From contig DYGX01000019.1 in the NCBI GenBank assembly GCA_020724465.1, positions 1 to 64,000 of the forward strand: a stretch of 64,000 nt of DNA. The letters run 5' to 3'. This document shows positions 32,017-35,204 of the stretch, one piece after another. Under the pieces are notes generated by a model. The model was not told the origin of the DNA. It saw nothing but the letters and a program-made list of their open reading frames with translations, and did no database searches. The DNA is from Thermoflexus sp. (GTDB lineage Bacteria; Chloroflexota; Anaerolineae; Aggregatilineales; Aggregatilineaceae). The translations under genes were made by a program, and so were the position numbers. Numbering within the stretch: position 1 is the first letter of the stretch; every line of letters starts with the position of its first letter.

Positions 32017-33831
32017 TCAGGCCAGTTCCAACGATTTGACGTCGATCAGATAGGTGGCGTGGTTGATGAATTCCTTGACGCTCATCGCGCCCAGGTCTTC
32101 GCCGGTGCGCAGACGCACGCTGACCGCGCTCTTCTCGATATCGCGGTCGCCTACCACCAGCAGCCACGGCACGCGCATCTGCGTCTGGTGCCGGATCTTG
32201 GCCGCCATGCGGTTGTTCGAGTCGTCCACCTCGACGCGCATCCCGGCCTCGCGGAGCTGCCGCGCGACGTCGCGGGCGTACTCCAGGTGGCGGTCGGCGA
32301 CGGGGATCAGCACGGCCTGGACCGGCGCCAGCCACGGCGGGAACGCGCCGTTGAAGTGCTCGATCAGGATGCCGATGAAACGCTCCAGCGAGCCAAACGG
32401 CGCGCGGTGGATCATCACCGGGCGGTGGCGCTCGTTGTCTTCGCCGACATACTCCAGCTCGAAGCGCTCCGGCAGGTTGTAGTCCACCTGAACCGTGCCA
32501 AGCTGCCACTCGCGCTTGAGCACGTCGCGGAAGATGAAGTCCAGCTTCGGCCCATAGAAGGCCGCCTCGCCTTCTTCGACCACGTAGTTGAGACCAAGCT
32601 TTTCGCAGGCGTGGATGATTGCGTTCGTCGCCTGCTCCCAGCTTTCGTCGCTGCCCACGTACTTATCCGACGCGGGGTCGCGCGTGCCGACGCGCACGCG
32701 GAAGTCGTGCATGCCCAGGCTGCCGAAGACGTACTGGATCAGGCGCACCACCTCGATGAACTCGTCCAGCAGTTGTTCGGGCGTGACGAACAGGTGCGAG
32801 TCATCGATGGTGAAGCCGCGCACGCGCGTCAGGCCCGAAAGCTCGCCGCTCTGCTCGTAGCGGTAGACCGTGCCGAACTCGGCGTAGCGCACCGGCAGAT
32901 CGCGGTACGAGTGCAGCTCGCTCTTGTAGATCATGATGTGGTGCGGGCAGTTCATCGGCCTGAGCAGGAACTCCTCGCCGTCCACATCGATCGGGCTGTA
33001 CTGGCTGTCCTTGTAGTACGGGTAGTGCCCGGACGTCCGATAGAGATCCAGCCTGCCGATGTGCGGCGTGACGACGGGCTGGTAGCCGCGCTCCATCTGC
33101 GCCTGGCGCAGGAAGCGCTCCAGCGTGTCGCGCAGGATGGCGCCCTTGGGCTTCCACAGCGGCAGCCCCTTGCCCACCAGCGGATCGATCACGAACAGGC
33201 CAAGCTGCACGCCGAGCGTGCGGTGGTCGCGCTTTCTGGCCTCTTCGAGCAGCGTCAGATATTCCTCAAGCTGTTCCGCCGTCTCCCAGGCCGTGCCGTA
33301 GATGCGGGTCAGCATCGGGCGCTTCTCGTCGCCGCGCCAGTAGGCTCCGGCGGGCGCTTTGAAGGTGATGCTGATCGCGTCCGGGTTGATTTCGCGCGTG
33401 TTGGCGACGTGCGGCCCCCGGCAGAGGTCCTCGAAGGTCGCCTGCCGGTAGGTGCTGATCACGACCGGCTCGCTGGTCTTCTCGCCGTACTCGTCCAGGC
33501 CGCCTTGTTCCAGCCCGTCGATCAGCTCCAGCTTATAGGGCTGATCGCGGAACAGCGCGCGCGCCTCGTCCGCCGAGACCTCGCGCCGCACGAAATCGTG
33601 CCCTTCGCGGATGATCTCGCGCATGCGCGCCTCGATCTCGACCAGATCTTCCTCGGTCAGCGGGCGCGGCAGGTCGAAGTCGTAGTAGAAACCGTCCTCA
33701 ATCGGCGGCCCGATCGCGATCTTCGCGTCGGGAAACTTCTCCAGCACGGCCTGCGCCATGACGTGCGCGCAGGAATGCCGGATGCGGTAGAGCTTGCTGT
33801 CGGCATACCGTTCCATAATTGGGTCGGTCAT
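32017..33831 (-). CDS. thrS: Threonyl-tRNA synthetase without TGS domain
   Basis: The 604-residue protein charges tRNA-Thr. It opens directly with the editing (N2) domain, HSCAHVMAQAV at H19-H23, and has the class II core motifs YRYEQSGELSGLTRVRGF (motif 2) and GSLERFIGILIEHF (motif 3), then the anticodon-binding domain. The usual N-terminal TGS domain of about 60 residues is absent. The ATG at 33831 directly follows AAGGAG, an unusually short spacing; ATG at 33816 is the alternative. A threonine-type T-box lies upstream on the same strand. Confidence 0.85.
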   Translation of the reverse strand: MTDPIMERYADSKLYRIRHSCAHVMAQAVLEKFPDAKIAIGPPIEDGFYYDFDLPRPLTEEDLVEIEARMREIIREGHDFVRREVSADEARALFRDQPYKLELIDGLEQGGLDEYGEKTSEPVVISTYRQATFEDLCRGPHVANTREINPDAISITFKAPAGAYWRGDEKRPMLTRIYGTAWETAEQLEEYLTLLEEARKRDHRTLGVQLGLFVIDPLVGKGLPLWKPKGAILRDTLERFLRQAQMERGYQPVVTPHIGRLDLYRTSGHYPYYKDSQYSPIDVDGEEFLLRPMNCPHHIMIYKSELHSYRDLPVRYAEFGTVYRYEQSGELSGLTRVRGFTIDDSHLFVTPEQLLDEFIEVVRLIQYVFGSLGMHDFRVRVGTRDPASDKYVGSDESWEQATNAIIHACEKLGLNYVVEEGEAAFYGPKLDFIFRDVLKREWQLGTVQVDYNLPERFELEYVGEDNERHRPVMIHRAPFGSLERFIGILIEHFNGAFPPWLAPVQAVLIPVADRHLEYARDVARQLREAGMRVEVDDSNNRMAAKIRHQTQMRVPWLLVVGDRDIEKSAVSVRLRTGEDLGAMSVKEFINHATYLIDVKSLELA

Positions 33832-33897
33832 CTCCTTGCGAATAGGGTCCGCCCGCGGCCTGCGCCGCGGTGTATCAAGCCCGGCCTGCGGCGCCAC

Positions 33898-34107
33898 CTA
33901 AAGGCAGCAGCGCCGGTGCGGCTGCCAGTTGGCGCGGTCGGCGGGCAGCAGCGCGCCCGGCCGCCGGATCGCGGCCTGCCTGCCGGATGCCAGGCCGTTG
34001 ACGGGCCGGTACATCCCGCCGCACACGCCGACATTCGCCCATTCCGCCGCAAGCTGCGCGGCGTCAAGCCGATCACGCATCGACTGGTTGCTGATGTGGG
34101 GAGCCAT
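33898..34107 (-). CDS. Small 69-residue ORF upstream of thrS
   Basis: The frame encodes 69 residues (MAPHISNQSMRDRLDAAQL at its start, ending RRCCL) with no recognised relatives. An AGGAGG ribosome binding site lies 10 bases before the ATG at 34107, much better than the thrS site, and the stop is 66 bases before thrS. It may be a leader peptide or a small protein; a chance frame is possible. Confidence 0.4.
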   Translation of the reverse strand: MAPHISNQSMRDRLDAAQLAAEWANVGVCGGMYRPVNGLASGRQAAIRRPGALLPADRANWQPHRRCCL

Positions 34108-34123
34108 TGGATCACTGCCTCCT

Positions 34124-34258
34124 GTTAGCGCTAAGTGCTGCGTCCCGGCGGTGTGCGGGACGCCGAAAGACGGTTGTGCATGTGGCTAACAGGGGGCACG
34201 CTGCGCTGACCCCTGCTGCCGGCGACGATGCGGCTCGCTCGGCAGGGATCAGCGCAGC
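34124..34258 (-). other. Highly structured leader region upstream of thrS
   Basis: Read on the minus strand, 34258-34200 folds as GCTGCGCTGATCCCTGC with GCAGGGGTCAGCGCAGC (17 pairs, one wobble). Next, CTGTTAGC and GCTAACAG (about 34189-34124) enclose a second hairpin, GCGTCCCG/CGGGACGC. The density of long stems between genes suggests a structured RNA. I do not recognise a named class. Confidence 0.45.
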
Positions 34259-34341
34259 CAGTCCCTACCGATGCCGCCCGGTAGTGCCGTCGGTGGTGGT
34301 GTCACCCGTCGGGGTGTCGGGAAGCATCGCGGTCATCACCC

Positions 34342-34698
34342 TCACGCTCCTATCGAAGCCGGCAGCTCGCTCTCATTGGCGCACTGCTCAAACACGCTCT
34401 CAAAGACGCCCAGCACCATCAGGTTATCGACGACGTCCTCGATCGTGTCCTGGAACAAGTCCTCAACGATCACATGCGGTATTTCGAGCGCGAGGAAGGG
34501 CGTCGGCGCCAGGGCGCGCTTGTGTGCGCGCGCAACATCCAGGCTCAACTGCATCTCGCGCCGCAGGTATTCGATCGTCACAAAGTGCGCCTGCCAGATC
34601 TGGTTGTCTTCCATCTCCACCAAGACATCGGCGCTGTCTGTATACGGGTCGAATGCCACCTCAGGCTCAGGTTCAACCCAGACACGTTTTACCAGCAC
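34342..34698 (-). CDS. 118-residue acidic protein, unrecognised, behind a T-box
   Basis: The product begins LVKRVWVEPEPEVAFDPYTDSADV and is helix-rich and acidic, with no motif I can name. GTG at 34698 has GAGGGAA 8 bases upstream. It is the first gene after the T-box terminator (34774) on the minus strand and thus the gene the T-box directly controls. ThrRS follows 510 bases further downstream. Confidence 0.6.
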   Translation of the reverse strand: MLVKRVWVEPEPEVAFDPYTDSADVLVEMEDNQIWQAHFVTIEYLRREMQLSLDVARAHKRALAPTPFLALEIPHVIVEDLFQDTIEDVVDNLMVLGVFESVFEQCANESELPASIGA

Positions 34699-34773: not shown

Positions 34774-35045
34774 AAAAACCTCGCCCTGTGACCTGTACAG
34801 CCTGGGGCGAGGTCCGAATGACCACGCGGTTCCACCCACGTTCAACAGCGTGCCGCGTGGGCACGCCGTCCTCTTTGGCCGATAACGGGGCATCCGGCGC
34901 TGTCTACTGGGCCAGGGGCCGTTCGGAGCGCGCTCTCGGGGGGTTTTCGCGGCGGGCGGTCGAGCGGGCTTGCAGTCCGAGACCCGCTCTCCCTGGGACG
35001 CGCACACAGACCGCTACTCGTCCCGATCATCGCTTTTCACGATCA
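34774..35045 (-). promoter_or_regulatory. T-box riboswitch leader, probably threonine-specific
   Basis: On the minus strand the T-box core GGGTGGAACCGCG (34837-34825) is enclosed by antiterminator arms CCGCGTGG/CCACGCGG (34853-34860, 34822-34829). It is followed by the terminator CCTCGCCC/GGGCGAGG (34812-34779) and TTTTT. Upstream are the stem I elements AGTAG (35018-35014) and GAGAGCGGG. The returning strand CCGC-GAAA-ACC places ACC (34944-34942), a Thr codon, at the specifier position. Threonine specificity is supported by thrS downstream. Nothing else is seen in 35046-35200. Confidence 0.8.
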
Positions 35046-35204
35046 TGTTCGGTTGTCAGGATAACAGCATAGCGCAAGCCGGCCCGTCAGTCAAGAGTTG
35101 GGCGCGCCTTTATAGCGATCACTAATATCTGCGCGAGGGCATCCCTGGCGCGGTGCCCGGCGTTGCATAGCTGTTTGGTACGATTTCCTCTGCATTTGGC
35201 GCTG

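Follow-up and report, generated by a model that had tools for sequence, protein, structure and literature searches.

The p118-thrS unit of Thermoflexus sp., which comprises a conserved gene for a 118-residue protein (p118) and the threonyl-tRNA synthetase gene, is probably regulated by threonine at two successive points, where a single sensor is usual: first by a T-box and then by a leader-peptide switch. We estimate the probability of this reading at roughly two in three. The unit is located on the minus strand of a 64,000-nucleotide stretch of contig DYGX01000019.1 that was analysed as a whole and is referred to here as the window. In this arrangement the T-box stands at the promoter, and a short threonine-rich ORF followed by a set of alternative RNA helices stands behind p118 (Table 1).

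Table 1. Features of the thrS locus, with positions counted in the window.
Feature	Position	Strand	Evidence
thrS, threonyl-tRNA synthetase, likely start ATG 33816	32017..33816	-	TIGR00418, 715 bits
69-residue ORF (ORF69)	33898..34107	-	conserved in 6 of 18 genomes of the family
Arm E, GCUAACAGGAGG, holds the ORF69 Shine-Dalgarno AGGAGG	34118..34129	-	pairing with D compared with shuffles
Switch arm D, CCCCCUGUUAGCC, partner of C5' or E	34184..34196	-	complementarity, shuffles
Switch arm C3', CAGCGCAG, partner of B5'	34201..34208	-	alignment/covariation
Switch arm C5', GGCAGCAGGG, partner of B3' or D	34211..34220	-	complementarity
Switch arm B3', UCCCUGCC, partner of A or C5'	34241..34248	-	alignment/covariation
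Switch arm B5', CUGCGCUG, loop of the A:B hairpin	34250..34257	-	alignment/covariation
Switch arm A, GGUAGGGA, holds the leader stop codon UAG	34262..34269	-	alignment/covariation
Candidate threonine leader-peptide ORF, MTAMLPDTPTGDTTTDGTTGRHR then stop, 8 Thr of 23	34265..34336	-	sequence, relatives, shuffles
118-residue protein (p118), conserved before thrS	34342..34698	-	ORF list, relatives, AF2 pLDDT 85.6
Threonine T-box leader with terminator	34774..35039	-	RF00230 match, terminator read in the sequence
T-box bulge UGGA, complement of UCCA (U73 of tRNA-Thr)	34831..34834	-	sequence, relatives, tRNA genes
Specifier codon ACC (Thr), context GAA-A-ACC	34942..34944	-	sequence; register compared with the genome's other T-boxes and relatives
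Promoter of the T-box transcript, sigma-70-like, TTGACT-17-TATGCT	35066..35094	-	consensus match only

The T-box leader and the genes behind it

The original prediction had recognised a T-box with core, antiterminator and terminator on the minus strand. This was borne out by direct reading of the sequence and by a whole-length match to RF00230 (model positions 1-219 of 219; 35039..34800, minus strand; 64.7 bits, E 2.3e-13 in 1601 bases searched). The covariance-model search suggested as a check thus agreed with the prediction, though below the gathering score; at this threshold (93 bits) nothing was obtained within the 64-kb window. From the 8 T-box matches in the Thermoflexus sp. genome only 3 were above the cut-off, and sub-threshold scores are therefore usual in this genome. 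At the thrS locus of relatives, 14 out of 20 sources matched RF00230 with E<0.01, and two loci (L022 and L025) exceeded the gathering score.

As compared by eye, the predicted ACC is in register with the specifiers of five other T-boxes of this genome, namely GUC (valS), UUC (pheS), CUC (leuS), and UGG (trpE and trpB). A shifted specifier AAC was ruled out by relatives carrying GAATACC or GAACACC. The UGGA acceptor bulge was present in 37 out of 37 related T-box cores examined and is complementary to U73, which was found in all three tRNA-Thr genes identified; further T-box cores that were compared carry UGGT or UGGC. The terminator arms were read directly from the sequence (34812..34805 and 34786..34779). 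They are followed by five T, the T run reaches to 34774, and CCUCGCCC, followed by UUUUU, is common to the antiterminator and terminator helices. A hairpin scan with a loop limit of 8 did not list these arms. Specifier, bulge and terminator confirm a genuine T-box of the threonine class, which is an ordinary member of its class. Its anatomy is what was observed, and tRNA-dependent read-through would be expected from the class to which it belongs. On shuffled sequence, the scan that provided the promoter gave 0.4 matches per region.

The ORFs of 118 and 69 residues described between T-box and thrS are both present. Instead of two small genes there are three small ORFs, since the reading frame at 34336..34265 had been overlooked. 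The distance from the terminator to thrS is about 957 rather than 943 bases because ATG 33816 is the most likely start of thrS; a separate ribosome-binding site for thrS is located 15 bases upstream of this codon. No TGS domain was matched in the thrS product by the profile search. A second promoter directly before thrS, named in the original prediction as the case that would make the synthetase gene independent of the T-box, was not detected by a consensus scan, which is weak evidence. The prediction had further stressed that T-boxes usually sit directly before the synthetase gene. The separation is real, and in this genome an intervening gene is unexceptional, as it was found behind 4 of the 8 T-boxes (valS, serS, leuS, and thrS).

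The first gene behind the valS T-box (L202, contig C53) is a 257-residue ORF which by eye resembles SAM methyltransferases, and the serS T-box (L205, contig C55) is followed by a 60-residue ORF. It is thus common in this genome for a synthetase to be separated from its T-box by another gene. The leuS T-box leader (contig C55, 172269-172599, minus strand; L008/L198/L208) encloses a complete tRNA-Ala (GGC) gene. In all 14 leuS loci scanned in the family (further loci L209-L211, L213-L221, L223, and L224) this tRNA gene is located 22-41 bases before the T-box core, and in 13 of them it is preceded by the specifier context GAACUC (CUC). Terminated leuS leader transcripts may hence supply a tRNA. 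No description of a tRNA gene inside a leuS T-box leader was found in the literature searched. Furthermore, a conserved 43-residue protein of the MAQTNRRPLVERLRELL... type is encoded between the leuS T-box and leuS (L208, L210, L211, L213-L217, L219, and L224). This ORF looked like a leucine-rich leader, but its protein sequence is conserved (tblastn, 9 further loci), and a general rule of T-box plus leader peptide for all synthetases of this genome was therefore dropped.

Of 151 genomes sampled from the order, 123 carry a relative of p118. The proposed co-occurrence of p118 with thrS was observed in 57 out of 62 loci fetched, where thrS lies downstream of p118 on the same strand. Among the five exceptions, one is a contig end (L013) and four (L057, L069, L071, and L073) had no thrS in the stretch taken. 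The 57 loci include loci of family f2, in which no T-box was detected by an Rfam scan of two loci and the core motif was absent from the loci fetched. The link between p118 and thrS is therefore independent of the T-box. p118 was not found in f3, f5, part of f8, and one locus (L091) of f1, the family of the window. In 14 of these 15 loci, the exception being L091, a T-box core is located within about 425 bases before thrS. A scan of genome contigs yielded 69 p118 loci. Almost all of them belong to records with titles such as Chloroflexi or Anaerolineae; a single record titled Pleurocapsa is perhaps misnamed. No Pfam or NCBIfam family was matched by any of 59 members, and the comparison with PDB sequences gave nothing better than E 0.6. 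p118 is predicted to adopt a small fold, for which a fold comparison returned no confident match (best Z 3.1). The idea that the small proteins have threonine- or tRNA-related functions is partly supported. A thrS-related role is plausible for p118 from its neighbourhood, which provides a tight genetic link for this uncharacterised protein family, but ORF69 is not evidently a threonine enzyme.

A threonine-rich leader ORF and a probable RNA switch at its stop codon

The overlooked ORF starts directly behind the p118 stop codon and reads ATG ACC GCG ... TAG. Only 1 out of 200 shuffles was as rich in threonine. At the same place relatives carry differing yet threonine-rich ORFs, e.g. MTDLPTTIQTHTLAGRSG, MTETDDTGTVTDGTTLETSTTGRPR, and MTDDDTSTTITLSPR; the leader sequence varies among loci while the threonines and the end near the stop are kept. 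Of the 14 f1 loci, 11 have such a leader; it contains 4 to 10 threonines, a number reached by 0 to 15 of 200 dinucleotide shuffles. No leader was found in L018 and L020, and L021 reaches 4 threonines only in an unrelated ORF. All five f4 loci contain a leader (1 to 48 of 200 shuffles reach the threonine count), and weaker candidates are present in five of the 11 f7 loci. In f2, which is devoid of a T-box, none of the 23 loci scored, namely those fetched with thrS in the stretch, contains an ORF with more than 2 threonines. The distance from the last threonine codon to the leader stop ranges from 5 to 9 codons and is 5 codons in 12 of 18 loci. A purine-rich motif resembling a ribosome-binding site was found not more than 18 bases before each of 24 listed leader starts; the motif is lax and a few spacings are odd. 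These 24 leaders were partly chosen as threonine-rich, and their overall threonine share (130/424) is therefore no test. A short ORF rich in codons for the sensed amino acid, as is characteristic of leader-peptide attenuators, is thus present at this locus.

Mutually exclusive helices at the leader end were found as well, with A:B3' competing with B3':C5'. In an alignment of 13 loci, 94.7% of 208 cells of the A:B3' and B5':C3' helices are paired, a value reached by none of 500 shuffles, and pairing falls to at most 44.7% when the partners are slid against each other. Two-sided changes were found in 6 pairs, 5 in B5':C3' and one in A:B3'; f4, for instance, has GGUAAGGA against UCCUUACC. Covariation thus concerns A:B3' together with B5':C3'. 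The alignment (A2) comprises 13 of 18 loci, omitting near duplicates (L010 and L081) and loci with insertions or divergent sequence (L023, L035, and L054). With segments set by hand, 101 of 104 pairs are formed in each helix, compared to 92.3% and 97.1% in the uncorrected alignment. C5':D is paired in 84.6%, which is not better than shuffles (51 to 408 of 500, depending on the measure).

With a covariance model of the switch element (R1), matches were obtained in 17 of the 151 genomes from the order, in each only at the thrS locus, second matches being the opposite strand of the same place. The model was built from sequences of 13 of these 17 genomes; the other 4 had contributed no sequence to it. 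A search with a short DNA pattern covering A and B was discarded as too loose: of the 11 genomes matched among 298, just 2 belong to the family of the window, and the backward control gave some matches as well.

Counted from the beginning of its A site, a ribosome covers some 12 bases. A ribosome held at the last threonine codon would therefore just leave arm A free, and a ribosome at the stop codon would cover it. As judged from the sequence, the geometry of the leader end and arm A is that of a leader-peptide attenuator.

T-box and leader occur together in most of f1 and in f4. A leader without a detectable T-box was found in f6 (L035 and L054, the latter with only 2 threonines) and f7 (L033 and L036), a T-box alone in f3, f5, and part of f8, and neither sensor in f2. 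The two sensors seem to be able to stand in for each other. In six f2 loci (L037, L038, L060, L061, L065, and L068), hairpins resembling terminators and followed by T runs were seen by eye between p118 and thrS; hence, the two genes may not share one transcript there.

Proposed mechanism and alternative readings

In the proposed mechanism, the T-box at the promoter would read uncharged tRNA-Thr and let RNA polymerase pass the terminator, and ribosomes would translate the short threonine-rich leader behind p118. With plentiful charged tRNA-Thr, the ribosome would reach the stop codon and cover A, B and C would pair, and D would be free for E. Under threonine shortage, the ribosome would stall on the threonine codons about one footprint before A, so that A:B3' could form. 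B5':C3' would be possible alongside it as a pseudoknot, C5' could pair with D, and the downstream genes would be expressed. The stalling, the direction of the switch and its output are what we infer here; the output may be hiding of the ORF69 ribosome-binding site in this genus and possibly polarity on thrS. Counted against two sensors are the absence of the leader from 3 of 14 f1 loci and the weak f7 leaders.

A more far-reaching version is tentative, its chances lying slightly below even. Here, each thrS message of this group of Chloroflexota would sense one tRNA-Thr pool twice: the T-box would respond to uncharged tRNA through transcription, and some 0.5 kb further on a ribosome at the pseudoknotted leader switch would respond to charged tRNA. 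p118 would be governed by one of the sensors, and thrS together with ORF69 by the two combined, resulting in an AND gate that uncouples the genes of the operon.

Relatives of ORF69 occur only at the thrS locus, in 6 of 18 genomes of the family of the window, and share EWANVG..GGM.RP and a terminal W.PH.RCC motif. It appears as a family-specific gene whose ribosome-binding site pairs with the switch. In the window, none of 200 shuffles of E pairs with D as strongly. D:E is also significant (at most 5 of 200 shuffles) in L010, L011, L012, and L019, all of which possess ORF69. Among the 15 of 18 loci tested, D:E pairing is thus significant in 5 overall, namely in 5 of 6 with ORF69 (exception L017) and in 0 of 9 without it, which indicates that the switch does not have release of the thrS site as a conserved outcome. 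Constrained folding, which was calculated without pseudoknots, gave an openness of the ORF69 ribosome-binding site of 0.20 in all ribosome states in the window and hence no support for a simple picture of site release there. In equilibrium folding this site opens clearly only in some other loci, such as L012 (0.15 to 0.52) and L019 (0.20 to 0.52), and locking of A:B returns it to 0.17 and 0.25, respectively. ORF69 and thrS are in the same frame, with TAG followed by GTG (33900..33895), but stop readthrough joining them was rejected, since the nearest relative (L010) carries an additional 174 bases at this place and its ORF69 stop is without an in-frame thrS GTG.

Candidates for the output of the switch, all unproven, are a hidden ribosome-binding site, Rho termination, and service to ORF69 only. 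Possible, though doubtful, is an action of the second switch on transcription: when threonine is abundant, a C-rich stretch beginning with D would be free and Rho would stop transcription before thrS, and stalling would hide the stretch. Where ORF69 is present, its translation would determine whether the message is shielded or exposed (polarity). C exceeds G in the 50 bases that follow C3' in each of the 14 of 18 loci tested (C/G 1.86 overall); 5.1% of 4570 control windows reach C/G 1.8. Moreover, loci without ORF69 have no hidden thrS ribosome-binding site, and no U-run follows the hairpins in the window. However, the C-rich stretch overlaps arm D, which is itself C-rich for pairing, only 2 of 14 loci reach C/G 1.8 when the stretch is moved 10 bases further on, and Rho sites are not reliably predictable. 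That the leader switch serves ORF69 only and the T-box alone controls thrS is improbable. The pairing of D with the ORF69 ribosome-binding site in loci with this gene and the separate thrS site fit this view, but ORF69 is absent from 9 of the 15 loci tested, in which leader and switch are present and thrS is the gene that follows.

The position of p118 allows another interpretation, which we consider rather unlikely, namely that p118 is the true target of the T-box with a function related to threonine or tRNA-Thr, and that thrS needs a second switch because of its distance from the T-box. Its conserved position before thrS in 57 of 62 loci, even in the family without a T-box, and the closeness of the T-box core to thrS in 14 of the 15 loci where p118 is missing would agree with this; on the other hand, p118 has no match in family, fold or function, and neighbourhood alone gives no function. 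Very improbable is a coincidence, in which the threonine-rich ORF would be fortuitous or encode an ordinary small protein and the hairpins would be unrelated to it. Single loci are indeed of modest significance (as many as 15 of 200 shuffles reach the threonine count in f1, and as many as 48 of 200 in f4), but the ORF recurs with changed sequence in f1 (11 of 14 loci) and f4 (5 of 5 loci), such an ORF is absent from all 23 f2 loci, and its stop codon is located inside the covarying arm A.

Comparison with known systems

T-boxes and leader peptides are both known kinds of regulators, and the leader of the enterobacterial thr operon combines a cognate-codon leader peptide with mutually exclusive RNA helices. 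The rtpA (anti-TRAP) operon of B. subtilis reportedly carries a T-box and a Trp leader peptide in series. This operon is the nearest precedent for two sensors in series at the thrS locus, which differs from it in sensing threonine instead of tryptophan, in belonging to the Chloroflexota, in controlling a synthetase gene, in the full gene (p118) between the sensors, and in the multi-armed covarying RNA behind the leader. In the literature searched, no account was found of a T-box combined with a covarying threonine leader switch on thrS or in Chloroflexota. If the proposed reading is true, this would be the second tandem design, after anti-TRAP, in which a T-box and a leader peptide respond to one amino acid, and it would act on an essential synthetase outside the Bacillota.

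A leader with threonine codons before thrS and without a clear U-rich terminator, resembling the one found here, has been described as thrL in Streptomyces lividans (PMC8079986). It has 2 threonines in 18 residues and belongs to another phylum, and the available text of that report mentions no T-box and gives no covariation. For trpS and leuS of Actinobacteria, ribosome-mediated attenuators with a cognate-codon leader and mutually exclusive helices are described (PMC1262725). Neither these, in the part of the source available, nor the enterobacterial thr attenuator have a T-box in front, and at the locus studied here the stop codon is located inside the first arm.

For Bacillota, thrS is reported as the sole synthetase gene with tandem T-boxes (PMC12452182), which likewise places two threonine sensors in series on thrS. 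In that phylum both sensors are T-boxes, in contrast to the T-box and leader peptide proposed for Chloroflexota. A second phylum would thus have doubled the threonine sensors of thrS by another route, which raises the question of why thrS needs two. The order studied here includes loci with a T-box only, a leader only, both, and neither, and their comparison can test this need.
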